From Micromonospora chersina (lineage in GTDB: Bacteria > Actinomycetota > Actinomycetes > Mycobacteriales > Micromonosporaceae), in assembly GCF_900091475.1 (NCBI RefSeq), contig NZ_FMIB01000002.1:2232001-2296000 (forward strand): a DNA stretch of 64,000 bases. The letters are read 5' to 3'. A model generated the notes under the pieces. That model searched no databases. It saw only the letters and a program-made list of their open reading frames with translations, and was not told the origin of the DNA. This document shows, piece after piece, positions 24,382 through 61,581 of this stretch; positions within the stretch are counted from its first letter, which is position 1; each line of letters begins with the position of its first letter. A program made the position numbers and the translations under genes.

Positions 24382-25016
24382 GGCCCCATCCTTTCCTGCC
24401 GCGCCGGGCGCCGCACGCGCGGCCCGGCACGTCACGCGTCCGGTCGGGTGGAAACGGGCCATGCGCACCTATCAGCGCCCAATACAAAACCGCCTCCGAA
24501 ATGGAGACAGGGGTGCCGGAGGTCGCATAGAAGAGGTGATCAGCCATCGATCGGGCCAATAGTCCGCCTACCGGACATCAACCGGGCCAAGCCGCCTTCC
24601 GGCCAACGGGACAACTGACCCTCGAACCCCCGGAGATCCAGTGAACGCGCAGGTCGCGGGCGGTGCGGTGGCGTCCGGGCGCACGCGGGGACGCGTTGCG
24701 CTGTCAGAAAAGTTGCCGCCGATCGAGAAATAGACGAACGTGCGACCGCGCTGGCCGAACGCATCGACGGCCGGCACGATCCGGGGATCCCGCCGAAGAT
24801 CACCAGTGCCATCATGTGGACAGGCAATTCCTATCGAGGGATCTACACCTGTCGCATGAATGAGCTGATCACGAGGCCGCCGCCGGCAATTCCCGGCCCG
24901 CGGATCCGATCCGCCGACGACAGGTGTCCGGTACCCGATCACGAGCAACTGGTGGGCCGGGGCGGCGCGTGGGCGGCGCTCCCCGGGCCGGCGCGGGAGC
25001 AGAGGAGGCGGACGCC
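24382..25016. other. 635-base intergenic control region upstream of the biosynthetic operon
   Basis: It is less GC-rich than its surroundings, particularly at 24480-24560 and 24700-24860. It lies between divergent genes, so it should hold both promoters. Only short open frames are present, without convincing ribosome sites. I found no confident -35/-10 pair. The clearest structure is a 10 bp inverted repeat at 24845-24854 and 24918-24927. The operon's ribosome site AGGAGG is at 25003-25008. Confidence 0.6.
24845..24927. repeat. Spaced 10 bp inverted repeat upstream of the megasynthase gene
   Basis: ACACCTGTCG at 24845-24854 is perfectly inverted as CGACAGGTGT at 24918-24927, 63 bases apart and about 90 bases before the start codon. 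A partial copy of the core (GACAGG) is at 24819-24824. It could be a pair of regulator half-sites or a leader stem; the sequence alone does not decide. Confidence 0.45.
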
Positions 25017-28000: not shown

Positions 28001-31000
28001 ACGCGCGGCCGACGTGCCGCGGCAGCGGCCCGCGCCCGCACCAGAGGCGCCGGTCACGACGCCCGCTCCGGCCCGGTGGGACGCCACCCGGGTACGCCTG
28101 GAACGCCTGGTCGTGGACGTGTGGCGCGAGGTGCTGGGCGTCGACGGGGTGGGCGTACGGGACAACTTCTTCGACCTCGGCGGCCACTCGATGCGGCTGC
28201 TGGCCGTCCTCGAACGGCTGCGCGACCGGCTCGGCGACGTGGTCACCGTCACCGACCTGTTCCGCCACCCCACTGTCGACGCCCTGGCCACGTTCCTCAC
28301 CACCGCCACCACCGGGTCGGCCCCGCCCGCCGCCGCGCCGGCCCCGACCGCCCGGCCCCGCGCCGGCGCTCACGACGGCACCGGCCAGCCGGGCGGCCTG
28401 ATCGCCGTCGTCGGCATGGCCTGCCGCTTCCCGGGAGCGCGGACCGTCGACGAGTACTGGCACAACATCCGCTCCGGGGTGGAGTCGGTCCGGGAGTTCA
28501 GCGTCGAGGAGATGCTCGCCGACGGCGCCGACCCCGCCCGGCTCGACGACCCGGCGTACGTCCGGGCCGGCACCTGGCTGCCCGGCATCGACGAGTTCGA
28601 CGCGGCCTTCTTCGGGATCACGCCCCGCGAGGCGCAGACCCTGGACCCGCAGCACCGGCTGCTGCTGGAGTGCGCGTGGCACGCCCTGGAGCACGCCGGC
28701 CACGACCCGTCCCGGTATCCCGGCCGGATCGGCCTGTTCGCCGGGTCGGGCCGCAGCAGCTACCTGCTCGACCACCTGAGCGGCCACCCCGAGCTGACCG
28801 GCTCCCTCGGCGAGCACCAGCTCTCGATCGGCAACGACAAGGACTTCCTGCTCAGCCGGGTCGCCTACAAGCTCGACCTCACCGGCCCCGCGGTCACCGT
28901 CGCCACCGCCTGCTCGACCTCGCTGGTGGCCGTGCACCTCGGCCGGCAGAGCCTGCTGACCGGCGAGTCCGACCTGGTCCTGGCCGGCGGGGTCAGCATC
29001 TTCCCGGCGCAGCGGCGCGGCTACCTCTACCACGACGGCGGGATCTACTCCCCCGACGGGCACTGCCGACCGTTCAGCGCGGACGCGCGCGGCAGCATCG
29101 AGTCCAGCGGCGTCGGCATCGTGGCGCTCAAGCGGCTGGAGGACGCGGTCGCGGACGGCGACACCGTCTACGCGGTGATCCGCGGTTCCGCCGTCAACAA
29201 CGACGGGGCACGCCGCACCGGCTACACGGCCCCGGGCGTCGCGGGTCAGGTCGAGGTGGTCAGCAGCGCGCTGGCCACGGCCGGCGTGGACCCCCGCTCG
29301 GTGGGCTACGTGGAGGCGCACGGGACGGGCACCAGCCTCGGCGACCCCATCGAGGTGGCCGCGCTCACCGAGGCGTTCCGGCGCGGCACCGGCGACCGCG
29401 GCTTCTGCGCCCTCGGCTCGGTGAAGGCCAACATCGGGCACACCGACGCCGCCGCCGGGGTGGCCGGTCTCATCAAGACGGTGCTGGCGCTGCACCGCCG
29501 CACGTTGCCGCCGACCATCAACGTGAGCCGGCCCAACCCGGCCATCGACTTCGCGGGCAGCCCGTTCTACCTCAACGACAGCGCCCGCCCGTGGACCGCC
29601 GACGGCCCGCGCCGGGCCGGGGTCAGCTCGTTCGGGATGGGCGGGACCAACGCGCACGTGGTGCTGGAGGAGCCGCCGGCCACGCCGGACCGGCCGACGG
29701 CACCGCCGGCCACCGGACCGCACCTGCTGGTCGTGTCGGCCCGTACCGCCGCATCGCTGGAGCAGCAGACGCGCCAGCTCCGCGACTGGCTCGACGCGCG
29801 GCCCGAGGTGCAGCTCGGGGACGTCGCGGCCGGCCTGGGCCGGCGCCAGTCGATGCCCCACCGGCGGTTCCTCGTCGTGGCGGACCGGGCCGACGCGCTC
29901 GCCGCCCTCGACGCGCCGCAGCGCCAGTTCACCGCCGCCCACCCCGGCGGCCGGCGACCGCTGGTGTTCGCGTTCCCCGGGCACGGCGCCCAGCACGTGG
30001 CGATGGGCGCCGGCCTCTACCGCGCGGAGCCGACCTACCGGGCCGTGGTGGACGAGTGCGCCGAGCTGGTCCGCGACGACCTGGGGCTCGACCTGCGTAC
30101 CCTGCTCTGTCCCGCGCCCGACGGGCACGCGGAGGCCGAGCGGCTGCTCGCGGAGCCCCGGCTGGTGCAGCCCGCGCTCTTCGTCACCGAGTACGCCCTC
30201 GCCCGGTCGCTGCTCGCCCGGGGCGTGACCCCGGACCTGATGGTGGGGCACAGCCTCGGCGAGTACGTGGCCGCCTGCCTGGCCCGGGTCTTCTCGCCGG
30301 CCGACGCGCTGCGCCTGGTCTGCGCCCGGGGCGCACTGGTCGGGCGGACCCCGGCCGGGGCGATGCTCGCCGTGGGCCTGCCCGAGACGGCGGTGGCCGG
30401 GCTGCTGGACGAGCGGGTGTCGCTGGCCGCCGTCAATGCCCCGGAGCTGTGCGTTCTCTCCGGCGATCCGGACTCGATCGGGGCGCTGCGGGAGCGACTG
30501 ACCGGCGAGGGCGTCGACTGCCGGCCGCTGCGGGTCGTCCGCGGCTACCACTCCGCCCTGCTCGACCCGGTGCTCGACGAGTTCGCCGCGCACGCCGGCC
30601 GGGTCACGTACCACGAGCCCGAGCGCCCCTACCTGAGCAACCTGACCGGCGGCCCGGTCGTCCCGGGGCAGGTCACCGACCCGGCGTACTGGGTGCGGCA
30701 CATGCGCGAGCCGGTCCGGTTCGCCGACCCGGCCGCGCTCCTGGCCGAGCAGGACGCGGTCCTCGTGGAGGTCGGTCCCGGGCACGCCCTCGGCGGCCTG
30801 GCCCGGCTGGCCGGCCTGGCCCCGGGTCAGGCCGTGGCGGCCATGCGGCACCCGCGCGCCGACGTCGACGACCTCGCCACGCTGCTCGACGCCGCCGGCC
30901 GGCTCTGGCTGGCCGGTGCGCCTGTCGACTGGACCCGGTTCCACGGCAACGGGCGCCCCCGGCCGGCCCTGCCCGGCTACCCGTTCGAGCGGCACCGCTA

Positions 31001-34000
31001 CTGGGTGGACGCCGCACCGAAGGCCGGCCCGGCGGCCGTCGCCGCGCCCGCCGCACCGGAGGCGCCGGCCGCCCCCGAGCCCGTCGACACCGGCAACCGG
31101 CCGGCCCTGAGCACGGCCTACGTCGCCCCGGGCAGCCCCGCCCAGGAGTGCGTGGCGGAGATCTGGGCCGAGCTGCTCGGCATCCGGCCGATCGGCGCGC
31201 ACGACAACTTCTTCGAGCTGGGCGGGCACTCGCTGCTCGCCACCCAGGTCGTGGTCCGGCTGCGGTCCCGGCTCGGCGTGGCGCTCCCGCTGGAGACGGT
31301 CTTCGCGCAGCCGACCGTCGCCGGCCTCGCCGCCGCGCTGCCGGCCACCGCACCCGCACCCGCCGCGCCCGCCGCTGTCGAGCCGGCCCCCGCACCGGCG
31401 GCCGAGCCCGCCATCCCCCGCGCCGACCCCGACACCGGACCCGCGCCGCTCTCGTCCGGCCAGCACCGGCTCTGGTTCCTCGACCAGGCGTACGCGCAGA
31501 ACGCGTACACCGTCAGCACGGCGCTGCTGCTGGACGGCGCCCTCGACGTCGGCGCGCTGCGCGAGGCCCTGGCCGGGCTGGTCCGGCGGCACGAGTCGCT
31601 GCGTACCGTGTTCCCGCTCGGTCCCGACGGCGACCCGGTCCAGGAGGTGCGGCCGGCCGGCCCGGTCGACCTGCCGGTCCTCACCGCGCCGGCCGGCGCG
31701 GACGGCCCGGCGGTGGCGCCGCGGACCATCGTGGAGCCGGCGGTCGCTGACGCGCTGCCCGGCTGGGTGCACGCGGCCCTCGCCGCCGACGTCCGGCGCC
31801 CGTTCGACCTGGCCACCGGGCCGCTGTTCCGGGCCCTGCTGCTGCGGGTCGCCGAGGACCGGCACGTGCTCTCGCTGACCATGCACCACAACGTCTCCGA
31901 CGGGTGGTCCCTCGGCCTCATCGCCGGGGAACTCGCCACCCGGTACGACGCCGCCCGTGAGGGCCGACCCGCGCCGCTGCCCGACCTGGCCGTCCAGTAC
32001 GGCGACTACGCGCGCTGGCAGCGCGGCCGGCTGGCCGACCCGGACAGCGACGACCTGCGCTGGTGGCGCCGGCAGCTCGACGGGGTCGCGAGCGTGCTGG
32101 AGGTGCCCACCGACCGACCCCGGCCGCCGGTGCAGACCTTCGACGGCGCCGTCAGCACCCGGGTCCTGCCGCCGGCGGCCGCCGACGAGCTGCGCCGGTT
32201 CAGCCAGGCCCGCGGCGCCACCCTCGCCATGACCGTGCTGGCCGCGCTGAAGGCCCTGCTCTGGCGCTACACCGGCCAGCGCGACATCTGCGTCGGCACG
32301 CCGGTCGCCGGGCGGGTCCGCGCCGAACTCGAGCCGATGGTCGGCTTCTTCGTCAACATGCTGCCGCTGCGCACCGTGCTGGACGGCGACTGGACCTTCG
32401 CGGAACTGCTCGGCGAGGTGCGGCGCACGGCGCTGGGCGCGTACGACCACCAGGAGGTGCCGTTCGAGCGGCTCGTGGACCTCGTCGACGCACCCCGGGA
32501 CCTCAGCCGCAACCCGCTGTTCCAGGTGATGTTCAACCTGCTCAACGTGCCCGAGCAGCGGGACCTGGGCACGGAGGGGCTGCGGATCGTCCCGTTCGCC
32601 GTCGAGCCGGGCATCGCCCAGCAGGACCTGGCCCTGTACGCGTACGAGGTCGACGAAGGGCTGCGGTTCCGGCTGGAGTACAACACGGCGCTGTTCGACG
32701 CGGAGACCGCCGAGCGGATGATGGGGCACCTGGAGACGCTGCTCGCCGCGGCCGTCGCGGACCCCGGCGTCCGGCTGGCGGACCTGGCCGTGCTCACCCC
32801 CGCGGAGCGGGACCGGATGGCCGGGTGGAACGACACCGCCGCCGAGCCGGGCTGGGCGGTGCCGGGCCGGCCCACCCTGGTCGACCTGATCGCGCAGCAG
32901 GTCGCGACGCGCCCCGACCGGCCCGCCGTCACCTTCGGCGCCACCACGCTCCGCTACGCCGAGTTGAACGTCCGGGCCAACCGGCTCGCGCACCGGCTCC
33001 GCCGCGCCGGCGTCGGCCCCGACGTCACGGTCGCCGTCTGCCTGCACCGCTCCGAGGAGCTGCCGGTCACCCTGCTCGGCGTGCTCAAGGCCGGCGGCGC
33101 GTACGTGCCCGTGGATCCCGACTACCCGGCCGAGCGGCAGCGGTACGTGCTGGCGCACAGCGCCGCCCGGGTCCTGGTCACCGCGGCGGACCTGGCCGAC
33201 CGGTTCGCCGACTTCGCCGGCGAGGTGGTGCGGGGCGGCGCGGCCCTGGACGGGGAGCCGGAGACCGACCCCGAGCCGTCGGCCGGGCCGGACGACCTCG
33301 CGTACGTCATCTACACCTCCGGCTCGACGGGCCGCCCCAAGGGCGTCCGGGTGACCCACGGGGCCGTGGTGAACACCCTCGCCACCATGCGCGAGCGGCC
33401 GGGCCTCACCGGCGACGGGACCATGCTCGCGATGGCGAGCTTCGCCTTCGACATGTCGGTGCCGGAACTGTTCCTGCCCCTGGTGGTCGGCGCCCGGATG
33501 CTGCTGGTGGGCCGCGACGTCGCCTACGACGCGCCCCGGCTGGCCGACCTGCTGGCCACCGAGCGGGTCACCCTGGCCCAGGGCACCCCGGCGACGTGGC
33601 GGCTGCTCGTCGAGTCCGGCTGGACCGGGACACCGGGCCTGACCGCCGTGTGCGGCGGCGAGGCGGTGTCCGCCCCGCTGGCCCGGCAACTCGCCGAGCG
33701 GGTGGACGCGCTGTGGAACCTCTACGGCCCGACCGAGGCGGCCGTGTGGTCCACCATGGACCGGATCGAGCCCGGCTTCACCCACCTCACCGTCGGCCGC
33801 CCCATCGGCAACATGCGCGTCCACGTGCTCGACGCGCAACTGTCCCCCGTCCCGGTCGGGGTGCTGGGCGAGCTGTACCTCGGCGGCGCCGGGCTGGCCC
33901 GCGACTACCACGGCGACGCGGCGCTGACCGCGCAGCGGTTCGTGCCGGACCCGGACGGCGGCGGCCGGCTGTACCGCACCGGCGACCTCGGCCGGCGCCT

Positions 34001-36851
34001 CGCCGACGGCCGCATCGAGTTCGCCGGCCGCGCCGACTCCCAGGTCAAGGTGCGCGGGTTCCGCATCGAACTCGGCGAGATCGAGGCGGTGCTGCGCCGC
34101 CACGGGTCGGTCCGCGACGCCGCCGTCGTGGTCCGCGAGGACGGCGACGAGAAGTCGATAGTGGCGTACCTGACGCTTGCCGGGACCGGTGGCGACGCCG
34201 GACCGGAGGGGCCGGAGATCACCGCCGACTTCGACGCCGACCCGGCGCCGTGGCGGGCCTTCGCCCGCACCTGGCTGCCGGACTACATGGTGCCGTCCGC
34301 GTTCGTGGTGCTCGACCGGATGCCGCTCAACGCCAACCGCAAGGTCGACCGCGCGGCCCTGCCCGCACCCCGGCGCGGCGGCGCCGCCGTCGGCGCGACC
34401 CCGCCGGACACCCCGCTGCGCCGGGCCCTCGCCGAACGGTGGGCGGCGGTGCTCGGGTACGACAGCGTCGGCATCGACGACGACTTCTTCGACCTCGGCG
34501 GCGACTCCTTCAAGGCCATCAAGGCGCTCGCCGGCAGCGAGCCGGCGATCAGCGTCCTCGACCTGTTCCGCCACCCGACGATCCGGGGGTTGACCGACCA
34601 CCTGGCGACGACCGGCGGCTCGGTCGGGCGCCTGCTGCACGAGCTGACCCCGGCCCGGCCGGACACGCCCACGACCCTGACCCTGGTCTGCGTACCGTTC
34701 GGCGGCGGCAGCGCGATCACCTTCCAGCCTCTCGCCGACGCCCTCCCGCCGGGCGTCTCGCTGTACGCCCTGGAGCGCCCCGGCCACGACGTGAACCGCC
34801 CGGACGAACCCCTGCTCGGCCTGGACGAGCTGGTGGACCGCTGCGTGGCCGAGGTGGTCGACGGGATCACCGGCCCCGTGGCGGTGTACGGGCACTGCGT
34901 GGGCGGCGCCGAGGCGGTCGAGCTGGCCCGCCGGCTGGAGGCGGCCGGCGTCGAGGTGACCGGCGTGGCCATCGGCGCGCACTTCCCCGCGCCGCGACTG
35001 CCCGGCCGGTTGTTCGGCTGGCTGCGCCGGTGGTTCCCGGTGGAACGCTGGACGTCGAAGCGGCGGACGCTGGAGGCGCTGCGCGCCATGGGCTTCTTCA
35101 CCGAGGTCTTCGACGCCGACGAGAAGGACTTCGTGATGCGCGTGGTCCTGGCCGACTCGGCGAAGGGCGAGGACTACTACACCGACGTCTACGCCGAGGG
35201 CCTGCCCCGGAAGCTGGCCGCGCCGCTCGTCAGCATCGTCGGCAGCGGCGACCGCGCAACGGAGTTGTACCAGGAGCGGTACCTGGAGTGGGAGTTCTTC
35301 GCCGACCGGGTCTCGCTGGAGGTCATCGAGGGCGCCGGCCACTACTTCGCCAAGCACCAGCCCGCCGAGCTGGCCCGCGTCATCCTGGCGCACTGCGACC
35401 CCTCGACGGCGGCGCGACCTGCCGAGCCCGCCCGCCCCGAGCCCGAACCCGCCCCTGCGCCGAGGCGCGAGGCGCCTGCCGCCGCGCGCCGGGCCATGCC
35501 GAGCCTGGCCGTGTTCTACCTGGTCGCGATCGGCCAGCTCGTCTCGCTCATCGGCAGCGGGCTGACCGGCTTCGGCATGGGCCTCTGGGTCTACCAGCGC
35601 ACCGGGTCGGTGTCGCTGTTCGCCACGGCCACCGTGCTGGCGCTGCTGCCCGCCGTGGTCCTCTCCCCCGTCGCCGGCGCGCTCGCCGACCGGTGGGACC
35701 GAAGACGCCTGATGATCTTCGCGGACTGCCTGGCCGCCACCGGCACGGTGAGCCTCGCCCTGCTGCTCTGGCTCGGCCAGCTCCAGCTCTGGCACGTGTT
35801 CACCGCGATCACCGTCACCGCGGTGGCGACCGCCTTCCAGCAACCCGCCTACCTGGCGGCCGTCACGCAACTGGTGCCCAAGCGGTACTACGGGCGCGCC
35901 AACGGCATCGTCGCCCTCGGCACGGCGACGAGCACGGTGCTGGCGCCGCTTGTCGGCGGCGCGCTGGTGATCGCGGTCGGCCTGCGCGGCATCGTCGTCA
36001 TCGACCTGCTCACCTTCGCCTTCGCGGTGCTCGTCACCCTGTCGGTCCGCTTCCCGGACACCCTGTTCGTCCGGCGGGAGGAGCCGTTCCGGCGGGAGGT
36101 CCTGGGCGGCTGGCGGTTCATCGTGCGCCGGCACGGCCTGGTCGCCCTCGTGGTGCTCGTCGCGTCGCTGAACTACTTCTTCGCCATGGTGGAGGTCCTG
36201 GTCACGCCGCTGACCCTGTCCTTCGGCGACCCGGCGGTGCTCGGCCGGGTGCTCGCCGCCAGCGGCGTCGGCATGCTTGTCGGCTCGGTGCTCATGGGCG
36301 TCTGGGGCGGCACGGCCCGGCGTACCACGGGGATCCTGGCCAGCGTCCTGCTGCTGGGCGTCTCGCTGCTCACCGTCGGCCTGCGCCCGAGCCCGCTGTT
36401 CCCGGCGCTCGGCCTGTTCGGGATGGGCCTGGCCACCGCGCTGGTGAACACCCACTGGCTGGCCATCGTGCAGGCCAAGGTGGGCCTCGAACTCCAGGGC
36501 CGGGTGCTGTCCATGGGCCAGATGCTGTCCTGGCTCATGGTGCCGGCCGGCTTCCTCACCGCCGGCCCGCTCGCCGAGCACGTCTTCGCCCCGCTGGCCG
36601 CCCCCGGCGGGCCGCTGGCCGGCGTCGTCGGCACCGGGCCGGGGCGCGGCATGGCCCTCGCCGCGATCACGGCCGGGCTCTGCGCGCTCGCGCTGGCCGC
36701 CGCCGGCATCGCGTACCGGCCGATCCGCGACGTCGAGGACGAACTGCCGGACAACGATCCGGGCAGCGTCATCCTCGCCGACAAGGACCGCCTCCAGGAG
36801 GAGGCCGACCGGCAGCTCGCCCTGCACCGGAGCGGAGGGGCACGCCGGTGA
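25017..36851 (+). CDS. Hybrid NRPS-PKS megasynthase with Cys-type thioesterase fused to an MFS transporter
   Basis: 3,944 residues; ATG at 25017 with AGGAGG upstream. Domains: C 31-460 (HHVAVDEWS); A1 490-995; T1 (Ser1058); KS 1127-1560 (Cys1299, then VEAHGTG and NIGHTD); AT 1645-1950 (Ser1746 in GHSLGEY); T2 (Ser2072); C 2140-2595 (HHNVSDGWS); A2 2620-3120; T3 (Ser3164); TE 3220-3460; MFS 3494-3900. Hand-aligned codes: A1 D-L-T-K-V-G-E-V-G, Asn-like; A2 D-M-P-Q-V-G-L-V-W, nearest to Gly (weak). The PKS module has no KR, so the beta-keto group should stay. The TE elbow is GHCVGG, with Cys3294 in place of Ser. The MFS part has about 12 helices and the LADRWDRRR loop. The N-terminal C domain needs an upstream donor, probably from the coupled downstream genes. 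Confidence 0.9.
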
Positions 36852-39800
36852 GCGCCCCCGCCCGCCCCGCCGGCCCGACCCGCCGCACCGCCGGCCGGCG
36901 CCCGTCCGGCGACGTGCCCGCCGTGGACTGCCTGCACCGGATGGTGGCCGCGCAGGCCGCCCGCACCCCGGAGGCGGAGGCCGTCCGGCACGGCGACCGG
37001 ACGCTCTCCTACCGGCAGCTCGACGAGGCGGCGAACCGGCTCGCCCGGGTGCTGCTGCACCGCGGCGTGACCCGGGAGGACCGGGTCGGCGTCTGCCTGC
37101 CGCGGACGCCCGAGCTGGTGGTCGCCCTGCTCGCCGTGCTCAGGGCCGGCGCCGCCTACGTGCCGCTGGACCCCGCGTACCCGCCGGCCCGGGTGGCGTT
37201 CATGGCCGCCGACTCCGGGGTGCGACTGGTGCTGACCCGCGCCGACCTGGCCGGCCGGTTCCCCGACACCGCGGTCGCGGTCGACCGGCTCGACCCGGTC
37301 GAGGACGCGACCGACCCGGCGGCGCCGTCCACTCCCGAGGATCTGGCGTACGTCATCTACACCTCCGGCTCGACCGGGCGGCCCAAGGGCGTGGCCATCG
37401 AGCACCGCTCGGCGTCGGTGCTCATGCACTGGGTGCGGCAGACCTTCGACGACGGTGAACTGGGCGGCCTGCTCGCCGCCACCTCGGTCTGCTTCGACCT
37501 GTCCGTCTTCGAGATCTTCGGCCCGCTCTGCTGGGGCGGCCGGGTACTGCTCGTCGACGACGTGCTGGCCCTCGCCGCACCGGGGGCCGACCGGCTGCCC
37601 GTCACCCTGGTCAACACGGTGCCCTCCGCCATGGGGGAACTGCTCACCGCGTCGGCCCTGCCAGCCAGCGTGCGCACCGTCTGCCTGGCCGGCGAGCCGC
37701 TGACCGCCGCGCTCGCCGCCCGGGTCTGGTCCCGGCCGCACGTACGCCGGCTCTGCAACCTCTACGGCCCGTCGGAGGACACCACCTACTCCACCTGGGC
37801 CGAGGTGCCGCCGGACAGCGGCGACCCGCCGATCGGCCGGCCGCTGCCGCGGACCCGCGCGTACGTCCTCGACCCGGACGGGCAGCCCGTCCCGCCCGGC
37901 GAGCCCGGCGAGTTGCACCTGGCCGGGGCGGGCCTGGCCCGGGGCTACCTCGACCGGCCGGACGAGACCCGCGCCCGGTTCCTGCCCGACCCGTTCCGGC
38001 CCGGCGAGCGGATGTACCGCACCGGCGACCGGGTGCGGCTGCGGCCGGACGGGCAGCTCGCCTACCTGGGCCGGCTCGACGACCAGGTGAAGCTGCGGGG
38101 CTACCGGATCGAACTGGGCGAGGTGGCCGCCCGCCTGGCCGCCCTCCCCGGCGTACGCGAGGCCACCGCCGCCGTGCGGCCGGGCCCGAGCGGAGACCCG
38201 CTGCTGGTCGGCTATCTGGTGGGCGAACGGCGCGACGACGTGCGGGCCCGGCTGGCCGAGGTGCTGCCCGCGCCACTGGTCCCCGCCACCCTGGTGTGGC
38301 TGGACCGGCTGCCCACCCTGCCCAACGGCAAGGTGGACCGGGGCGCGCTGCCCGCGCCCACCCTCGGCGACGGCACCGGGACCGGCGCGGCGCTCGACGG
38401 CACCGCCGGCACGGTGGCCGCCGTCTGGCGGGAGCTGCTCGGGGTGCCGGTCACCGGCGCGGACAGCGACTTCCTCGCCCTCGGCGGCGACTCCCTGCTG
38501 GCCGTCCGCTGCGCCACCCGGCTGGCCGCCGCCACCGGCCGGCCCGTCGGGCCGGGCGACCTCTTCGCCCACCCCACCGTCGCCGCGCTGGCCGCCCGCC
38601 TCGACGGGCTGGCCCCGGACCCGGCCGCCATCACCGCAGCCGCCGACCTCGACGGACCGGACGGCGACCCGGAGCCGGCCGCCGTACCGGCCGCGGAGAG
38701 ATCTTGGAAGGAAAGCGCCCCGGGACGGGCCGATCGCTTCCAAGATCTCTCCCGAAACCGGCCCTGCGGGGGCGGGGCCGGTCCGGCGCCGGCCGGTCCC
38801 GCCCCGCTCTCCGCGGCGCAGGCCAGGCTGTGGTTCCTGCACCGGCTCGACCCGGCCGACACCTCCTACCTGCTGGCCTTCGCGGTCCGGTTCGCCGCGC
38901 CGCTGGACGCCGACCGGCTGGCCCGGGCGCTGCGCCGGGTGGTCGACCGGCACCCGGCCCTGCGCACGGTCTTCCCCGACGGGCCGGACGGGCCGGTGCA
39001 GCACGTCCAACCCACCGCCGACGCGACGCCGGTCGTCGTGCCGCTCGCCCCGGGCACGCCGCTCGACCCGGGGACGCGACCCGGCGCGGGCACGCCGACC
39101 GACGCACAGCTGCGCCGGCTCGCCGCCGAGGCCACCCGGGTGCCTGTGGACCTGGCGGCGGGCCCGCTGCTCCGCGTCCGCCTCGTGCCGGACGGCGCCG
39201 GCCGCGCGCTCGCGCTGCTGCTGGTCGTGCACCACATCGTCTTCGACGACTGGTCGTTCGGCGTGCTCGTGCGGGACCTGGCCCAGGCATACGACCGCGA
39301 GGGCGACCTCGCGACGGCGCCCGAGCAGCCGGCGGTCGGTCCGGCGGCGTTCGCCCGTTCCCAGCGGGACTGGCTGGCCGGGCCGACGGGACGGCGGGCG
39401 GCGGCCGACGTGCTGGACGAGCTGCGCGGCGCCCCCGACCTGCTCGACCTGCCCGCCGCCCCACCTCGGCGAGCCTGGGTCGCTACGGCCGCCGCACCGA
39501 CCGGGCCGAACCCACACCTCACCCACGGCCCGCTCCACGCCGCCCCGCCGACGACACCGAACGCCGGCGACGGCTCGACGTCCAGCGCCGTACGACGCAC
39601 CGCACTGGACGCGCGCGATCCCCAAGCGTCGGGCGCCGCGCTGCGGACGACCCTCGACGCCGCCACCGCCTGCGCGGCGCGGGAGCTGGCCCGGGCCGAG
39701 CGGGTCAGCCTGCACATGGTGGGACTGGCCGCGTTCGCCACAGTGCTCGGCGCCGCCACCGGCCGGCGCGACCTGCTCGTCGGCGTCGCCTTCGCCGGCC

Positions 39801-40306
39801 GGACCAGCGTCGCCGCCGAGCAGAGCGTCGGCTGCCACGTCAACACGCTGCCGCTCCGGCTGCGCCCGGCCCCCGACCGGAGCTTCGCCGACCTGCTCGC
39901 CGAGGCCCGCCGGGTCACCCTGTTCGCCGCCGCCCACCAGGACGTCCCCTTCGACCTGCTGGTGGAGCGGCTGCGGCCGACCCGCCGGCCCCGGCGCAAC
40001 CCGCTCGTCCAGGTGGCCTTCGGGGTGCAGAACGCCCCGCCGGCCCGGCACCGCGGCGCGGCCGGGATCGAGTTCACCGGCGTGGAACTGACCCCGGACA
40101 CCGCCCGCCTCGACCTGACCCTCTGGCTCGACGAGCGGCGGGACGGGCCGGCGGCGCTCTGGACCTGGCGCACCGACCTGTTCGACCACGACGGGGTGGC
40201 CGCGTGGCACCGCCGGTTCTGCGCGGTGCTGCGTACCGCCGCCGCCGACCCCCGGCGCAGTCTCGCCGACTGCGCCGACACCGCTGGGAGTGAGAGAGAT
40301 GAGTGA
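36848..40306 (+). CDS. NRPS A-T-C protein, AmbB-like, predicted to load alanine
   Basis: 1,152 residues from a GTG overlapping the previous stop (GTGA). Domains: adenylation about 23-500 ([47 protein letters not shown]); carrier with Ser549 in LGGDSLLA; condensation about 650-1130 with HHIVFDDWS. The hand-aligned code is D-L-F-N-C-A-L-T-Y, one change from the known Ala code D-L-F-N-N-A-L-T-Y. An A-T-C protein loading Ala, followed by two 2-oxoglutarate oxygenases and a C*-A-MT-T-C-T protein, is the architecture of AmbB and its cluster in P. aeruginosa. The T-C linker (about 610-650) contains a 16 bp palindrome read through in frame. Confidence 0.9.
38695..38752. repeat. 16 bp perfect palindromic repeat inside the NRPS T-C linker
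   Basis: GGAGAGATCTTGGAAG (38695-38710) is perfectly inverted at 38737-38752 with a 26-base loop. It encodes SWKES...FQDLS in the linker between carrier and condensation domain. It is much less GC-rich than the flanking gene and has atypical codons, suggesting insertion of a small palindromic element kept in frame. Similar sequences may be dispersed in related genomes, but that needs a search. Confidence 0.7.
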
Positions 40307-41354
40307 GCAGAACCGGGTCGCGCGGACCATCCCCCGTCGCGGCCGCGAGCGGAACCTGGTGGACGTCCGACCGGACTGGCCCGGTGGCCCGCTGCCGGCG
40401 CTCGTGCGGGCAAACGTGCCCGACGTCGACCTGGCCGGCTGGCTGGCCGGCCACCGCGACGAGGTCGACGACCTGGCCCGCCGCGCCGGCGCGGTGCTGT
40501 TCCGCGGCTTCGCCGTGGCCGGCGCCGACGACTTCCGCACCGTGATGGCGGCCCTATCCGATGACGTCCTCTCCTACGGCGAACGCTCCTCACCGCGCAG
40601 CCAGGTCACCGAGGGGGTGTACACCTCCACGGAACACCCCGCGGACCAGCCGATCGTGCTGCACAACGAGCAGTCGTACACGGTGAACTGGCCGTTGCGC
40701 ATCGTCTTCCACTGCGAGGTCGAGCCGGGCGCCGGCGGGCGTACGCCCCTCGCCGACAGCCGCCGGGTGCTGGCCCGGCTCCGCCCGGAGACCGTCGCCG
40801 GGTTCGAGCGGCGCGGGGTGCTCTACCGGCGCAACTACCTGCCCGGCATCAGCCTCTCCTGGCAGACCGCGTTCCAGACCGGGCGGCGCGAGGACGTCGA
40901 GGCGTACTGCGCCCGGGCCCTGATCGACGTGGAGTGGGTGGGCGACCGGCAGTTGCGTACCCGGCAGGTGCGCCCGGCGGTGCGCCGCCACCCGGTCACC
41001 GGGGAGCGGACGTGGTTCAACCACGCGCTGTTCTTCCACGTCACCTCCCTGCCCGACGACGTCAGCACCGGCCTGCGGGCCGCCCTCGGGGAGGAGGACC
41101 TGCCCTACCAGACCGCGTACGGCGACGGCACGCCCATCCCCGACGAGGTGCTGGCCGAGCTGCGCGCCGCGTACGCGGCGGAGACCCGCTCCTTCGCCTG
41201 GCGGCGCGGCGACGTGCTGCTGGTGGAGAACATGCTCGCCGCGCACGCCCGGGAGCCGTTCACCCCGCCCCGCCGGATCCTCACCGCGATGTCCGACCCG
41301 GTCGCCGCGCCGGAGCTGACCGAGTCGCTCGGTGCGACGGGAGGCCGGGCATGA
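40299..41354 (+). CDS. Fe(II)/2-oxoglutarate-dependent oxygenase (TauD/TfdA family), AmbC/AmbD-like
   Basis: 351 residues from the ATG at 40299, overlapping the NRPS stop by eight bases; a GGGAG-type site precedes it. The iron ligands are His122 and Glu124 in LHNEQSY and His316 in AAHAREPF, with Arg318 as the 2-oxoglutarate anchor. The acidic ligand is Glu rather than Asp (HxE), as in the clavaminate synthase-like branch that often acts on amino acids or carrier-bound substrates. In AMB biosynthesis two such enzymes act on the carrier-bound glutamyl unit. Position and coupling suggest the same here. Sequence similarity to the next gene indicates an old duplication. Confidence 0.88.
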
Positions 41355-42367
41355 GCGGGCCGGGGCCGCGACGGCGGGCCACCGGCACGGTCAGCTCGCC
41401 GGTGACCCGGCGGGTGCTCGTGGACGAGGAGTTCGTGCTGCTCGTCGAGGCCGCCGTGCCCGACCTCGACCTGGCGGGCTGGCTCGCCGGGCGCCGCGAC
41501 GAGCTGATGGCCGACCTGGACCGCCACGGCGCGGTGTTCTTCCGCGGCTTCGAGGTGCGCACCCCCGACGACTTCAGCCAGGCGGCCCGGGCGGTCAGCC
41601 CGGACCTGCTCGGCTACCTGGAGCGGGCCGCACCCCGGCACGAGGTCGCCGACCGGGTGTTCACCTCCACCGAGTTCAACGCCGAGCAGTGGATCCCGCT
41701 GCACCACGAGATGTCGTACTCGCACAACTGGCCCACCCACCTCTACTTCTGGTGCGCGCAGCCGGCCACCGGCAGCGGCGGGGCCACCCCGCTGGCCAGC
41801 GAGCGGGTCATCACCCCGCTGATCCCCGCCGACGTGCGGGAGCGGTTCCTCCGCGCCGGCGTCAGCTACGTGCGCAACTACGGCCCGCACCTGGACCTGC
41901 CCTGGCAGGAGGCGTTCCAGACCACGGACCGGGCGGAGGTGGAGGCGTACTGCGCCGCCTCGGCGACCGAGTTCACCTGGCTGGGCGGGGACGGGCTGCG
42001 CACCCGCGCCCGGCGGCAGGCGGTCGCCACGCACCCGCGTACCGGGGAGACGGTGTGGTTCAACCACGCCCACCTGTTCCACGTGTCGAACATGCCGACC
42101 GAGGTGGCCGGCGCGCTGCTGCGCGAGTACGGCCCGGAGGGGCTGCCCCGCAACGCCTACTACGGCGACGGCAAGCCGATCCCCGACGAGGTGGTCACCG
42201 GCATCCGCGAGCTGTACCGGCGGCACGCCGTCTCGGTGCCCTGGCAGCGCGGCGACGTGCTGGTGGTGGACAACTTCCTGGCCACCCACGGCCGGGAACC
42301 CTTCAGCGGCGACCGGCAGATCCTGGTCGCCATGTCCGACCTCTACGTCAACCGGAGTGTGCTGTGA
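41351..42367 (+). CDS. Second Fe(II)/2-oxoglutarate-dependent oxygenase (TauD/TfdA family), AmbC/AmbD-like
   Basis: 338 residues, with the ATG overlapping the previous stop (ATGA). It is a paralogue of the preceding oxygenase: both share [14 protein letters not shown], the GAVxFRGF segment, a VEAYCA segment and the C-terminal [14 protein letters not shown]. The iron site is His118, Glu120 (LHHEMSY) and His313. Retention of full catalytic triads in both copies argues for two separate oxidations. In the AMB precedent these convert glutamate toward the 4-methoxy-3-butenoic skeleton, with loss of the side-chain carboxyl. Which enzyme does what here cannot be read from sequence. Confidence 0.88.
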   Translation: MSGPGPRRRATGTVSSPVTRRVLVDEEFVLLVEAAVPDLDLAGWLAGRRDELMADLDRHGAVFFRGFEVRTPDDFSQAARAVSPDLLGYLERAAPRHEVADRVFTSTEFNAEQWIPLHHEMSYSHNWPTHLYFWCAQPATGSGGATPLASERVITPLIPADVRERFLRAGVSYVRNYGPHLDLPWQEAFQTTDRAEVEAYCAASATEFTWLGGDGLRTRARRQAVATHPRTGETVWFNHAHLFHVSNMPTEVAGALLREYGPEGLPRNAYYGDGKPIPDEVVTGIRELYRRHAVSVPWQRGDVLVVDNFLATHGREPFSGDRQILVAMSDLYVNRSVL

Positions 42368-45300
42368 ACGGATACCGTCTCTCGCCGGTCCAGCGCCTGG
42401 CCTGGTCCGGGAAGCAGGACCTGGTCCGGGCGCGGGTGCGGCTCGACCGGCCGCTGGACCGGGCGCGGTTGCAGGCCGCCGTCGACACGGTGGTGGCCCG
42501 GCACGAGGCGCTGCGGCTGACCCTGGTGCACCACCCCGGGCTGCGGGTGCCGCTGCAGGACGTGGACGACGCCCGGGCCGTGACGGTCGGCGCGCAGGGC
42601 GACCTGTCGGTCACGCTCACCGACGACGCGCTGGAGGTGGCCGCCACCCCGCTCATCGCCGACCCGGCCAGCCTGCGCCTGGTCCTCGCCGACCTGGCCC
42701 GGGCGTACGCCGGCGAGGCGCTGCCGGAGGACCCGGAGGCGTTGCAGTTCCTCGACGTGGCCGAGTGGCAGTGGGAGGAGCGGGAGCAGGCCCCGAAGGC
42801 GGAGCCCGGCGCGCCGCCCGCACGGCTGGTCACCCCGCACGGGGACGACCCGACCGCCGTGGTCACCGCGACGGTGCCCGCCGCCACGCTGGCCGACGCC
42901 GCCCGGGCCGCGGACGTCGAGCCGGCAACCGTGCTGCTCGCCGCCTGGGCCCTCGCGGTGTCCCGCCGCGCCGAGGCGCCCGACGGGACCGACGAGGCGG
43001 ACCTGGTGCTGGCCCGGTGGAGCGACGGCCGGCAGGCCGACGGCACCGCCGAGGTGGTGGGCCCGCTGGGCGGCTACGGCCCGCTGCGGCTGGCCCTGCC
43101 GCTGCCGGACGCCCCCGCCGACCTGCTGGCCGGGGTCCGTGCCGCGGAGGTCGCCGCCGACGAGACGTTCCACCTGGTCGACCCGGTGGACGAGCAGTCC
43201 GGGGCGGTAGCCGGCTTCGCGCTGCTGCCCACCGTGGACCCGGCCACCGTGGCCGGCTTCGGCGGCGCCACGGCGACGGTCGCCGACCCGCCGGCCACCG
43301 CCGGTCCGCAGCTCACGGCGCTGACCGACGGCGACCTGGTCACCCTGCGGGTGATCGGCGGGCAGTGGCTGCTCGACTCGCTGCTGGCGATCCTGCGCAC
43401 CCTGCCGGCCGCGCTCGCCGGGGACGCGGCGCTCGCCGTGCTCGGGGACGGGGAGGCCGGCTGGCTGGCCGACGCGGCCGGAACCCCGTCGGCGGCGCCG
43501 GTGCGTACCCTCGTGGACCTGCTCGACGCGGGCCTGGCCGGAATGGACCAGGAGGCCCCGGCGGTGGTCGCGGCGGACGGCGCGTACACCGCCGGTGAGC
43601 TGCGGGAGCGGGCCGCGCGGGTGGCCGGCGCCCTCGCGGCGCGCGGCCTGGCCGGCGCCCCGGTCGGGGTGCTGGCCGCGCGGTCCCGGGACACTGTCGT
43701 GGCCTTCCTCGGCGTGCTGCGGGCCGGCGCGGTGTTCGTGCCGCTGGACCCGGACGCCCCGGCGCCGCGCCTCGCCGCCCAGCTCCGCGCGGTCGGCGCG
43801 GAGGTCGTGGTCGGCGCCGGCGGCCCGGCCACCGTCACCGTGGCCGACCTGGTGGCGGCCGGCGGGCCGCCGCCGGCCGCGCCCGCCCCGGCCGACCCCG
43901 CGTACGTCATCTTCACCTCGGGTTCCACCGGCACGCCGCGGGCCGTGCGGGTGTCGCAGGGCGCCGCCGCGCACCTCGCCGCGGCGTTGGAGCAGACCGT
44001 GTACGCGGGCAGCCGCCCGGGGCTGCGGGTCGCGGTGAACGCCCCGCTCACCTTCGACGCCTCGGTGAAGCAGCTCGTGCAGCTCGGCCACGGCCGCTCC
44101 CTCTACCTGGTGCCCGAGGAGGTCCGCCGGGACGGGGTGGCGCTCGCCGCCGCGCTGGCCGACCACGACGTGGACGTGCTCGACCTGACCCCTTCCCAGC
44201 TGCGCATCCTGCTCGCCGGCGCCGGGGACACCCGGCTGCCCGGCCTGCTGCTGCTCGGCGGCGAGGCCGTCGGGCCGGACCTGTGGGAGACGGTGGCGGC
44301 GCTGCCCGGCGTCCGCGCCGTCAACCTGTACGGTCCCACCGAGTGCACGGTGGACACCACGGCCGCGGAGATCCGCGCCGGTGACCCGCCGACCATCGGC
44401 CGGCCGCTGCCCGGCGTCGCGGTCCGGGTGCTCGACGAGCGGCTGCGGCCCGTGCCGCCGGGCGTGGCCGGGGAACTCTGCGTCAGCGGCCCGCAGCTCG
44501 CCGACGGCTACCTGGGCGACCCGGAGACCACGGCGCGGCGCTTCGTGGCGGTGACCCTCCCCTCCGGTGGCACGGAACGGGTCTACCGGACCGGCGACCG
44601 GGTCCGCTTCGACGCCGACCGGCGGCTGCGCTACCTGGGCCGGCTGGACGACCAGGTGAAGATCCACGGTTTCCGGGTGGAGCCGGGCGAGGTCGCCGCC
44701 GTTCTGCGCGGCCACCCCGAGGTCGCCGACGCCGCCGTGGTCGCCCGCGACGACGACGGGTACGGCGACCGGCTCGTCGCCTACGTCCGGCCCGGCCGGC
44801 CCGCCGCGACCGTCGACGTGGACCGGATCGCGGGGGTGAACCCGCACGAGACCCGCTACCTGTACGACGAGATCTTCGTCCAGCAGGTCTACCTGCGCGA
44901 CGGCATCGTGCTGCGGCCCGGGGCGACGGTGCTCGACGTGGGCGCGAACATCGGCATGTTCTCGCTGTTCGTCCACAGCGTCTGCCCGGACGCCACCATC
45001 CACGCGTTCGAGCCGGTGCCGTCGGTGGTCGACCTGCTGCGGCGCAACGTCGCGGAGTTCGGCGTGCCGGCCACGGTGCACGGGTTCGGGCTGTCCCGGG
45101 CGGCCGGGGAGGTGTCCTTCACCTACTACCCGGGCTACTCGATGATGTCCGGCCACGCCGCGTACGCCGACCCGGACGCCGAGGTGGCGGTCATCAAGCG
45201 GTACCTGGCCAACGAGCGGGACGCCGGCGCGGACGAGCGGGACGTCCTGCTCGACCGGGTCGACGAACTGCTCGCCGAACGCTTCGCCGGCCGGCGGCTC

Positions 45301-47646
45301 ACCGTGCCGGTCCGGCCGCTCTCGGCCGTCCTGGACGAGCTCGCCCCGGAGCGGGTCGACCTGCTGAAGATCGACGTGCAGCGGGCCGAGGCGGACGTGC
45401 TGGCCGGCGTCGACGACCGGCACTGGCCGCTCGTCGCGCAGGTCGCCATGGAGGTGCACGACGCGCCCGGCACCGAGACGGCCGGCCGGCTGGCCGAGCT
45501 TGTCGCGTTCCTCGAGGCCCGCGGCTTCACCGTGGTCACCCGCCAGGACGACCTGCTCGCCGGCACCGACCGGCACACCCTGCACGCCGTACGCCCCGGG
45601 TACGCCGCCGACCCCCGCCCGGCGGTGGCCGCACCGGCCGCGCCGGCGGCCGGCCCGCTGCCGGAGCGGCTGGCCGGCTGGCTCGCCGAGCGGCTGCCCG
45701 CCCACCTGCTCCCGGCCGCCGTGGTGCTCCTCGACGAGCTGCCGCTGACCCGCAACGGCAAGCTCGACCGGGCGGCGCTGCCGGCACCCCGGCTCGACCG
45801 GCCGGGCGCCGGCACGGCGGTGACACCGGCCAACCGCGCCGAGGAGATCCTGGTCGAGGCGTGGCGCGAGGTGCTCGGAGTGGCCGACTTCGGGGTGACG
45901 GACAGCTTCTTCGCCCTCGGCGGCGACTCCATCCGGAGCATCCAGATGCAGGTGGCGGCGCAGAAGCGCGGGCTGTCCTTCCAGCTCAACGACATCTTCA
46001 CGTACCAGACGATCCGGGAGCTGGTCGAGCACGGGCAGCTCACCGTCGACGGCGTGGAAACCCGGCCCGCCGCGACCGGGACCGGGCGGTTCGCCCTGGT
46101 GGCCGACGCCGACCGGGAGCGGCTGCCGGACGGGCTCGCCGACGCGTACCCGATGACCGCCCTCCAGCAGGGCATGGTCTACCACGGCGAGCTGACCGGG
46201 GACCCGGCCATGTACCACAACGTCACGGCGCACCGGGTCGCCGCGCCGCTGGACGCGGGTGCGCTGCGCCGCGCGCTGGCCGGGCTGGTGGCCGCCCATC
46301 CGGTGCTGCGGACCGGGTTCGCGCTGGGCGCGTACTCCGAGCCGTTGCAGCTCGTCCACGCGGAGGCGCCGGTCGAGGTGCCGGTGACCGACCTGGCCGC
46401 CGCCGACCCGCAGGCCCGCCGGGAGCGGATCGACGAGCTCGTCGCCCAGGAACGGGTACGCCCCTTCGACTGGGCCCGCCCGCCGCTGCTGCGGCTGCAC
46501 GCCGTCCGGGAGGACGCCGACGCGTTCACCCTTATCGTCGCCGAGTACCACGGCATCCTCGACGGCTGGAGCCTGCACCGCTTCCTCACCGACCTGCTCG
46601 CCGCGTACGACGGGGAGCGGGCCGGCCGGGCCCACCCGGTCGACCCCGGCCTGCCGTTCCGCGAGTACGTGGCGGCCGAGCGGGAAGCCCTGGCCGACCC
46701 GGCCACCCGCCGGTTCTGGCTGGACGGCGCCGGAGCCGTGCCGCCGCTCCTGCTCGGCGGGGCCCAGCCACGGACCACCACCACCCAGCGGGTGCCGCTG
46801 CGGGCCGACACGACCGACCGGGTGACCGAGGCGGCCCGGGCCGCCGGGGTGCCGGTCAAGTCCTGGCTGCTCGCCGCGCACCTGCGGCTGGTCGGCGAAC
46901 TCGCCGGGCGGGACGACGTGGTCAGCGGCCTGGTGGTCGGCGGCCGGCCGGAGGGCGAGGGCAGCGACGCCACCCTCGGGCTGTTCCTCAACACCGTGCC
47001 CGTGAGCGTCACGCTGGGCACCCGGTCCCCGGCAGAGTTGGCCGCCGAGGTGTGGCGGGTCGAGCGGGAGCTGATGGGGCACCACCGCTTGCCGCTGGCC
47101 GAGATCGTCCGCGCCGGCGGGGCCGGCCCCCGCTTCGACCACTTCTTCAACTGGACCCACTTCCCGAATGACCCGGCCGGCGGCGGCAGCCGCATCGTGG
47201 ACAGCCGGGGCATCACCGTCGACGTGGCGTTCAGCCTCGCCGTCGACGCCGAACTGGCCGTGGACACCGGCCGGCTCGCGCTCACCGTCCAGTACGACCA
47301 CCGGCACGTCCCCGCGGAGCGGGTGGACGCCCTCGCCGACGGCTTCCGCCGGCTGCTGGCCGCCGACCCGACCGCGCCGCTGCCGCCCGTCGCCACCCCC
47401 GGGCCGGCGGCCGGCGGCGACGCGCGCAGCGAGTGGGCGGCCCGGGTGGCGGGGGCCTGGCAGGAGGTGCTCGGGGCCGCGCCGCGCGATCCGGCGACCG
47501 ACTTCCTGGCCGCCGGCGGGGACTCGCTGCGCGCCCTGCGGCTGGTCACCGTGCTGCGGCAGCGCCACGGCAGCGACCTGACGCTGCCCGAGTTCGCGGC
47601 GCTGGGCAGCTACGGCGCCCTGGTGGACCGGGTGGCGCGCCCGTGA
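42364..47646 (+). CDS. NRPS C*-A(MT)-T-C-T, AmbE-like, predicted to load glutamate, lacking a thioesterase
   Basis: 1,760 residues from a GTG overlapping the oxygenase stop (GTGA). Domains: a degenerate condensation-like domain (1-380) in which the HHxxxD position reads PLIADPASL, so it is probably inactive; adenylation 385-810; a FkbM-type methyltransferase inserted at about 815-1085 (VLDVGANIGMFSLF; LKIDVQRAEADVL); the rest of the A domain (LPLTRNGKLDRA); carrier Ser1189; condensation 1260-1680 with YHGILDGWS; carrier Ser1721. The code D-A-K-D-L-G-L-V-D is one change from the Glu code of surfactin synthetase. This equals AmbE (C*-A-MT-T-C-T-TE) without its TE. The methyltransferase would make the methoxy group. 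Release must occur elsewhere, probably through the megasynthase at 25017. Confidence 0.9.
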   Translation: MNGYRLSPVQRLAWSGKQDLVRARVRLDRPLDRARLQAAVDTVVARHEALRLTLVHHPGLRVPLQDVDDARAVTVGAQGDLSVTLTDDALEVAATPLIADPASLRLVLADLARAYAGEALPEDPEALQFLDVAEWQWEEREQAPKAEPGAPPARLVTPHGDDPTAVVTATVPAATLADAARAADVEPATVLLAAWALAVSRRAEAPDGTDEADLVLARWSDGRQADGTAEVVGPLGGYGPLRLALPLPDAPADLLAGVRAAEVAADETFHLVDPVDEQSGAVAGFALLPTVDPATVAGFGGATATVADPPATAGPQLTALTDGDLVTLRVIGGQWLLDSLLAILRTLPAALAGDAALAVLGDGEAGWLADAAGTPSAAPVRTLVDLLDAGLAGMDQEAPAVVAADGAYTAGELRERAARVAGALAARGLAGAPVGVLAARSRDTVVAFLGVLRAGAVFVPLDPDAPAPRLAAQLRAVGAEVVVGAGGPATVTVADLVAAGGPPPAAPAPADPAYVIFTSGSTGTPRAVRVSQGAAAHLAAALEQTVYAGSRPGLRVAVNAPLTFDASVKQLVQLGHGRSLYLVPEEVRRDGVALAAALADHDVDVLDLTPSQLRILLAGAGDTRLPGLLLLGGEAVGPDLWETVAALPGVRAVNLYGPTECTVDTTAAEIRAGDPPTIGRPLPGVAVRVLDERLRPVPPGVAGELCVSGPQLADGYLGDPETTARRFVAVTLPSGGTERVYRTGDRVRFDADRRLRYLGRLDDQVKIHGFRVEPGEVAAVLRGHPEVADAAVVARDDDGYGDRLVAYVRPGRPAATVDVDRIAGVNPHETRYLYDEIFVQQVYLRDGIVLRPGATVLDVGANIGMFSLFVHSVCPDATIHAFEPVPSVVDLLRRNVAEFGVPATVHGFGLSRAAGEVSFTYYPGYSMMSGHAAYADPDAEVAVIKRYLANERDAGADERDVLLDRVDELLAERFAGRRLTVPVRPLSAVLDELAPERVDLLKIDVQRAEADVLAGVDDRHWPLVAQVAMEVHDAPGTETAGRLAELVAFLEARGFTVVTRQDDLLAGTDRHTLHAVRPGYAADPRPAVAAPAAPAAGPLPERLAGWLAERLPAHLLPAAVVLLDELPLTRNGKLDRAALPAPRLDRPGAGTAVTPANRAEEILVEAWREVLGVADFGVTDSFFALGGDSIRSIQMQVAAQKRGLSFQLNDIFTYQTIRELVEHGQLTVDGVETRPAATGTGRFALVADADRERLPDGLADAYPMTALQQGMVYHGELTGDPAMYHNVTAHRVAAPLDAGALRRALAGLVAAHPVLRTGFALGAYSEPLQLVHAEAPVEVPVTDLAAADPQARRERIDELVAQERVRPFDWARPPLLRLHAVREDADAFTLIVAEYHGILDGWSLHRFLTDLLAAYDGERAGRAHPVDPGLPFREYVAAEREALADPATRRFWLDGAGAVPPLLLGGAQPRTTTTQRVPLRADTTDRVTEAARAAGVPVKSWLLAAHLRLVGELAGRDDVVSGLVVGGRPEGEGSDATLGLFLNTVPVSVTLGTRSPAELAAEVWRVERELMGHHRLPLAEIVRAGGAGPRFDHFFNWTHFPNDPAGGGSRIVDSRGITVDVAFSLAVDAELAVDTGRLALTVQYDHRHVPAERVDALADGFRRLLAADPTAPLPPVATPGPAAGGDARSEWAARVAGAWQEVLGAAPRDPATDFLAAGGDSLRALRLVTVLRQRHGSDLTLPEFAALGSYGALVDRVARP

Positions 47647-58763: not shown

Positions 58764-59659
58764 CACGCCTCTTTCCGTACGGGCCGGGTCAGCGGCAGCC
58801 GCGGGTCCACCGGCTGGCCGGCCCAGCTGCCCCGGATCCAGCCGTGCCGGGGGTCGTCCACACAGGCCATGGTCCGGGTGGCGCCGGGCCCGGCCAGCAC
58901 GTTCAGGTAGTACAGGTCGTAGCCGGGGGCGGCCATCGACGGCCCGTGGTAGCCGTACGGGACGAGCACCACGTCGCCGGTGCGCACCTCGGCGAGCACG
59001 TCGATCGGCCGCTCAGCGGTGCCGTAGACCCGCTGGTAGCCGACCGGACCCGCGCCGGGCTCACCGCCGGCCACCTCGAAGTAGTAGACCTCCTCCAGCG
59101 CGGCCTCCACCCGCCCGTCGTCGTACGTGCGGGCCTGCTCGTGCTTGTGCGGCGGGTACGACGACCAGTTCCCGCCGGGCGTGACCACCTCCACGGCGAC
59201 GAGCCGGTCGCAGTCGAAGGCGTCGGGTGCGCAGAAGTTGTTGACCTGCCGGCTGGCCGGCCCCGCGCCGCGCAGTTCCACCGGCACGTCCCGGGCCGCG
59301 CCGTAGCGGGGCGACAGCCGGCGGGTGGCCCGCGCAGACGGCAGCGCGAAGCGTCCCGCGCCGCGGATCGTCACGTCGGCGTCCCGGGGCAGGTAGGCGA
59401 AGTCGGTGACCGCGGCGAACACCGACTCGCGCCCGGCCAGCGCGAGCCGCAGCCCGTCGCAGTGGACGGTGGCGGCGCCGGCCAGCGGCAGGACCAGCAT
59501 CTCCTCGTCGCCGGTGGCGAAGCTGACCTCACCGCCGTCGGGCAGGGTGAGCACCCGCAGGCCGGCGTAGGTCCAGCCGGCCCGCTCGGGCGTGACCTCC
59601 AGCGACCACGGCCCGCGGGCCGTGCCGCCCCAGGGCAGGAGGGCGTCGACGGTCCTCAC
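58763..59659 (-). CDS. iolB: 5-deoxy-glucuronate isomerase
   Basis: 298 residues from a GTG at 59659 that overlaps the aldolase-gene stop (GTGA). It is a bicupin with landmarks REVNNF-like SRQVNNFCAPDAFDCDRLVAVEVVTPGGNWSSYPPHKH, EEVYYFEV and VLVPYGYHGPSMAAPGYDLYYLNVLAG. The His and Glu residues in PPHKH and EEVYYF bind metal. It converts 5-deoxy-glucuronate to 2-deoxy-5-keto-gluconate. It sits directly upstream of iolD in a tightly overlapping operon. Confidence 0.93.
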   Translation of the reverse strand: MRTVDALLPWGGTARGPWSLEVTPERAGWTYAGLRVLTLPDGGEVSFATGDEEMLVLPLAGAATVHCDGLRLALAGRESVFAAVTDFAYLPRDADVTIRGAGRFALPSARATRRLSPRYGAARDVPVELRGAGPASRQVNNFCAPDAFDCDRLVAVEVVTPGGNWSSYPPHKHEQARTYDDGRVEAALEEVYYFEVAGGEPGAGPVGYQRVYGTAERPIDVLAEVRTGDVVLVPYGYHGPSMAAPGYDLYYLNVLAGPGATRTMACVDDPRHGWIRGSWAGQPVDPRLPLTRPVRKEA

Positions 59660-61523: not shown

Positions 61524-61581
61524 GGGGCGCCCTCCGTCCCGGCCGGCGTCGGCGTTCCGCCGGCTCGATCCCGTCCCTGAT

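Follow-up and report, generated by a model that had tools for sequence, protein, structure and literature searches.

The closest described system is that of Pseudomonas aeruginosa, in which two oxygenases hydroxylate T1-bound glutamate at C3 and C4, the methyltransferase (MT) methylates the 4-hydroxyl group, AmbB adds alanine, and the second condensation domain of AmbE (AmbE-C2) performs a dehydration that is followed by decarboxylation and a double-bond shift, as given in parts of two reports (PMC10880069, PMC8968710). In the same parts, AmbE-C2 is stated to need H1497, R1605, D1726, D1734 and Q1747, residues unconserved in other dehydrating C domains, and the Ala-Glu-Ala tripeptide, which an earlier note on the DNA studied here had taken as the thiotemplate intermediate of the pathway, is revised to a dipeptide of alanine and methoxyvinylglycine (Ala-AMB). 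The N-terminal C domain of McyA has been grouped with the AmbE C domain, and oxyvinylglycines inhibit PLP enzymes, according to a portion of PMC4357302. Among the matches listed in the literature searched, judged by title and start of abstract, no actinomycete AMB cassette was described, and no paper contained both "methoxy-trans-3-butenoic" and "Micromonospora"; in the part of PMC11212132 considered, which deals with an actinomycete NRPS-PKS, "methoxyvinylglycine" appeared in the reference list only.

The window, that is, the whole stretch of 64,000 nucleotides analysed (G000:C2:2232001-2296000), belongs to a genome of 6.68 Mb. At 36848-47646 Pfam searches showed an A-T-C synthetase, two TauD oxygenases and an A-FkbM MT-T-C-T synthetase encoded by overlapping genes, the last synthetase having its nearest named relatives in Micromonospora. 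The four-gene order A-T-C, oxygenase, oxygenase and C*-A(MT)-T-C-T of the earlier note was confirmed. All genes lie on the plus strand: the AmbB-like gene at 36848-40306, oxygenase 1, in the AmbC-like position, at 40299-41354 (ATG 40299 is the preferred start and GTG 40290 the alternative), oxygenase 2, in the AmbD-like position, at 41351-42367, and the AmbE-like gene at 42364-47646. Since start and stop codons overlap throughout (36848/36851, 40299/40306, 41351/41354, 42364/42367 and 47643/47646), an NRPS-PKS gene (24924-36851) and the gene of a Cys/Met-metabolism PLP enzyme (PF01053; 47643-48815, with a GTGA overlap at the AmbE-like stop) belong to the same run. The gene run is wider than first described, comprising six genes from the NRPS-PKS/MFS upstream to the PLP enzyme downstream. 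Chance resemblance to an AMB cassette was ruled out by the equal order in several genera and by the kept AmbE-C2 residues. Two further gene sets were observed: a separate multi-module NRPS set on the minus strand (G000:C2:2198642-2217209), about 15-33 kb ahead of the window, and, at 56922-62448, TPP enzyme, KduI/IolB, Cgl0159-like and PfkB domains with a GntR regulator, which resemble an inositol catabolism set and are unrelated to the cassette.

The adenylation specificity codes were read by hand from the motifs, with the final K assumed. The predicted code of the AmbB-like A domain, DLFNVLLTYK, was two residues off the Ala code, and that of the AmbE-like A domain, DAKDLLLVDK, was likewise two residues off the Glu code, which points to predicted activities of the kind proposed in the earlier note, Ala for the first and Glu for the last synthetase; the hand reading indicated no other residue for either. 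The AmbB code residues were identical in the 17 other actinobacterial loci of an alignment that omits L001, L012, L020 and L022, and differed in part in L021. The AmbE-like proteins were compared in 32 rows (actinobacterial proteins, with that of the window, make up 19 and TE-bearing ones 13; L018, L020, L021 and L022 were left out and L023 yielded no AmbE-type frame). Code positions D235, K239, D278 and V330 were identical in all of them, and position 331 was D in the 19 actinobacterial and N in the 13 TE-bearing rows.

The AmbE-like synthetase showed the core order of AmbE, N-domain-A-MT-T1-C2-T2. The N-terminal domain (C*, 42364-43548) was predicted to have a condensation fold by a structural model and its fold matches and lacks the HHxxxDG motif, in agreement with the inactive first C domain that had been proposed; the model offers a fold for the N-terminal domain of AmbE-type synthetases, which previously lacked an assignment. 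The MT domain, like that of AmbE-type homologues, was assigned to the FkbM family (PF05050/TIGR01444), whose members are mostly O-methyltransferases. At the family level, at which the methyltransferase of the earlier proposal was examined, an unrelated methyltransferase type was ruled out. The identity to the Pseudomonas AmbE-type protein P0203 was 43% for A, 44% for MT and 41% for C2, and the C2 domain of P0203 itself matches 7r9x within a 546-bit match. No C-terminal TE was found on the AmbE-like protein, which ends 39 residues past the T2 serine.

The C2 domain (46084-47430, approximate borders) had AmbE-C2 (7r9x) as its best PDB match (E 3.7e-83, 283 bits), followed by McyA (8jbr, 1.2e-71), all remaining matches being at 5e-30 or weaker. 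With residues counted from H1496 on the 7r9x alignment, the equivalents of H1497, R1605, D1726, D1734 and Q1747 were H, K, D, D and Q; thus the domain is of the dehydrating type with four of the AmbE-C2 residues identical and Lys in place of R1605, and the first His of HHxxxDG (H1496) is replaced by Tyr. The equivalents of H1497, D1726, D1734 and Q1747 were kept in 32/32 rows, and in a smaller comparison the set H, K/R, D, D, Q was kept in all 13 AmbE-type rows. Three ordinary C domains of the gene run, used as controls, lack K/R1605, D1734 and Q1747; the second His is retained in them, and D is found in the D1726 column for two of these controls.

The C domain of the AmbB-like synthetase carries an HHIVFDD motif and has AmbB (7x0e, 9.8e-40) fifth among its PDB matches, behind 5u89 (3.2e-49) and others. 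Both oxygenases carry HxE...H. In a tree of 41 rows, built without the P. aeruginosa AmbC and AmbD sequences, the actinobacterial oxygenase 1 set clustered with its counterparts from L022 (Azospirillum) and L021 (Alkalilimnicola; a fragment) with a support of 92/99, and the oxygenase 2 set was placed outside the proteobacterial AmbD-like clade on a weak backbone (69/94). The latter placement would count against simple orthology with AmbD or may reflect a lack of signal. With respect to the grouping with AmbC and AmbD, the first oxygenase goes with the proteobacterial first oxygenases of AmbE-type clusters, and the second was not placed with their second oxygenases. The assignment to an AMB-type route as a whole is partly supported, by the domain order, the codes, the FkbM MT and above all the AmbE-C2-type C domain, the placement of oxygenase 2 being a point that does not fit.

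The NRPS-PKS (3975 aa) has the Pfam order C-A(Asn-like)-T-KS-AT-T-C-A-T-TE-MFS, the MFS exporter being fused at the C-terminus. The code for Asn is DLTKVGEVGK, and the first A domain, with DLTKFIEVGK, is two residues off it; the second, DMPQACLVWK, is left unassigned with some likeness to Gly, and both codes matched those of G038, one other full copy read. The TE has Cys at the nucleophile place (GHCVGG), and GHCxGG was found in the TE of 12/12 relatives. TE and MFS share one frame in 11 of these 12; in L018 they are in different frames, and in L010 frame shifts occur between T and TE. No match to a LysE-type exporter (AmbA) was found in the 32 window proteins scanned.

The PLP gene directly follows the AmbE-like gene in 12 of the 23 related loci (L001, L002, L003, L005, L006, L007, L009-L013 and L018); 11 of these 12 Micromonospora loci have the NRPS-PKS upstream, L001 being cut before that point. 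The cassette is followed by other NRPS genes in L004 and L008, and L014-L017 have further NRPS genes (L017 by similarity only). In L016:16669-27376 and L017:16663-27376 NRPS genes come after the cassette, with an ornithine/lysine N-monooxygenase in L016, the annotated one; a siderophore conjugate with a vinylglycine unit is possibly made there. In the Saccharothrix locus L019, oxygenase 2 and the AmbE-like gene are followed by a TE encoded separately, by AzlC, by a small ORF and by a homologue of the PLP enzyme (57%), and no further NRPS module showed in the 25 kb covered; its AmbB-like synthetase and oxygenase 1 are in one continuous frame (L019:4441-8976). In Streptomyces caatingaensis (L020:7978-13849) both oxygenases are present with a C*-A-MT-T protein that ends after T1, no C2 match being found, and the product is perhaps a methoxylated hydroxy-Glu made without the vinyl step. 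L021 and L022 are proteobacterial, and L023 is an A-domain match only. Oxygenase 1 was matched at 1e-110 in 15/250 genomes of the family sample (3/44 genera). In the plasmid collection no AmbE relative was found at E 1e-100; a class-level search for the Pseudomonas amb locus gave 2/369 genomes, including the centre genome itself, and in the phylum sample of 396 genomes only the window's own MT domain was found among the 6 candidates scored per genome listed.

Enzymes of the PF01053 family handle vinylglycine-type intermediates. In the member encoded by the cassette the PLP-site Lys and the surrounding motifs are intact in the alignment, and methionine gamma-lyase is its closest relative of solved structure; it fell below the cut-off for all NCBIfam matches listed (25 of 60 families), and three more proteins of the genome match PF01053 strongly, at about 42% identity to it. 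Oxygenase 2 was matched at 1e-80 in 37/101 Micromonospora genomes, and at an identity of at least 87% with an adjacent oxygenase 1 match in 22/101, a count that rests on the oxygenase pair and not on AmbE. A PLP orthologue (at least 80%) was present in 25/101 genomes: it accompanied the pair on the same contig in 22/22 genomes and occurred in 3/79 without the pair (Fisher 2.5e-19, the species not being independent). The distance from the pair was about 5.3 kb in 18 genomes and about 19 kb in four (G011, G025, G071 and G094), G025 also showing two discrete TEs, an SDR, NRPS genes, AzlC and a CN-hydrolase. The three genomes with the PLP gene and no oxygenase pair were G006, G070 and G086. In G006 (L035:361-18093), a genome whose search gave no close match to the oxygenase pair, the PLP enzyme (about 80%) is beside a CN-hydrolase and a different NRPS-PKS with a luciferase-like monooxygenase domain; G070 is 87% complete with the PLP match near a contig start; in G086 the one annotated neighbour of the PLP gene is a ricin-type lectin. 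No PLP orthologue was found in the genomes of L014, L015, L016, L017 and L020 (best matches 40-46%). A housekeeping neighbour was ruled out as the nature of the PLP gene, 76/101 Micromonospora genomes being without a match at E 1e-100.

From these data the operon is proposed, with a probability of about 0.6, to make an Ala-methoxyvinylglycine thioester that is extended by the NRPS-PKS, with the PLP enzyme as self-protection. By analogy with the P. aeruginosa route, the AmbB-like A-T-C protein would load L-Ala and the AmbE-like A domain L-Glu on T1, the two oxygenases would hydroxylate Glu at C3 and C4, and the FkbM domain would O-methylate the C4 hydroxyl. The C domain of the AmbB-like protein would then join Ala and C2 would dehydrate, and decarboxylation with a double-bond shift, as in the reconstituted P. 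aeruginosa route, would give Ala-methoxyvinylglycine, moved to T2. Because the AmbE-like protein is without a TE, the dipeptide would be passed to the NRPS-PKS, a putative hand-over proposed from the missing TE and the gene layout; the suggestion of the earlier note that the vinylglycine would be part of a larger molecule fits these two features and is retained as a probable outcome. The NRPS-PKS would extend the chain by an Asn-like residue, by a C2 unit and by another residue, the Cys-type TE would presumably release the product and the fused MFS may export it. The PLP enzyme, a divergent methionine-gamma-lyase/cystathionine-type paralogue, would tolerate or consume released vinylglycine and so protect the producer.

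An earlier stop of the cassette, at a hydroxylated, O-methylated or dehydrated Glu for the peptide and without decarboxylation and double-bond shift, would agree with Lys at R1605 and Tyr at H1496 in C2, and with L020, where the lack of C2 means that the first half of the pathway can exist without the vinyl-forming step. It is nevertheless improbable, since the window C2 retains H1497, D1726, D1734 and Q1747, K at 1605 is also found in 3/5 TE-bearing AmbE-type rows, and McyA, the next related domain, is without D1726, D1734 and Q1747. Somewhat less improbable, while still unlikely, is that Ala-methoxyvinylglycine is released alone as in P. aeruginosa and that the gene run yields a second, separate peptide from the NRPS-PKS, which has a C domain of its own at its start as well as a TE; the discrete TE of the Saccharothrix cassette is in line with such a release. 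Against it, the scan of window genes next to the cassette showed no discrete TE, T2 is the last domain of the AmbE-like protein, neighbouring genes overlap, and the NRPS-PKS is found in the flank covered for 11 of the 12 Micromonospora loci with cassette and PLP gene.

Self-protection is the candidate role of the PLP enzyme, and a biosynthetic one, supplying or altering a building block, is a real possibility to which we give distinctly less than even odds. The intact PLP site would suit catalysis in biosynthesis, as would the pairing in G006 with another NRPS-PKS and a CN-hydrolase; yet the PLP gene goes with the cassette in three settings. One of these is L019, where no NRPS module beyond the cassette was seen in the sequence covered and the enzyme therefore has no other building block to serve. 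A protective role is thus preferred for the PLP enzyme within the proposed pathway. On a broader scale, it can be suggested tentatively, at a little under even odds, that actinobacteria use AmbBCDE as a portable start cassette by which assembly lines of different kinds receive Ala-methoxyvinylglycine at the N-terminus of the product (the NRPS-PKS, and the NRPS sets of L004/L008 and L014-L017), one branch having a methionine-gamma-lyase-like self-protection. If this were true, a family of peptide-borne PLP-enzyme inhibitors would be expected, none of which has been isolated among the literature searched. The proposed pathway would extend AMB chemistry from Pseudomonas to a genus that is a major source of drugs, 22/101 Micromonospora genomes carrying the closely related oxygenase pair, and would suggest unrecognised inhibitors of this kind, the candidate self-protection enzyme pointing at the target class.

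Compared with the known systems, the cassette shares with that of P. aeruginosa the A-T-C protein, two Fe/2OG oxygenases, the N-domain-A-MT-T-C-T protein, Ala-like and Glu-like codes, and a dehydrating C domain with AmbE-C2 residues. It differs in that the AmbE-like protein has no TE, no LysE exporter was found in the window proteins scanned, the cassette is joined to an NRPS-PKS with an MFS exporter, and a PLP enzyme is present; moreover, oxygenase 2 was not placed with the proteobacterial AmbD-like enzymes of AMB-type clusters, and the C domain of the AmbB-like protein is closer to PDB entries other than AmbB (7x0e). The TE-bearing AmbE-type synthetases of Pseudomonas, Alkalilimnicola, Azospirillum and Spartinivicinus (P0203, P0121, P0123 and P0125) have the same A-MT-T-C core and equal catalytic C2 positions, with 26-51% identity across these four domains (A, MT, T1 and C2), but carry the TE that the window protein lacks. 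The N-terminal C domain of McyA (8jbr) is second to AmbE-C2 among the PDB matches of the window C2, but is without the equivalents of D1726, D1734 and Q1747. Since a TE on AmbE and, in the window proteins scanned, a LysE exporter were sought and not found, the cassette is a variant rather than a member of the AMB system, and one that, by analogy, would work in the same manner.
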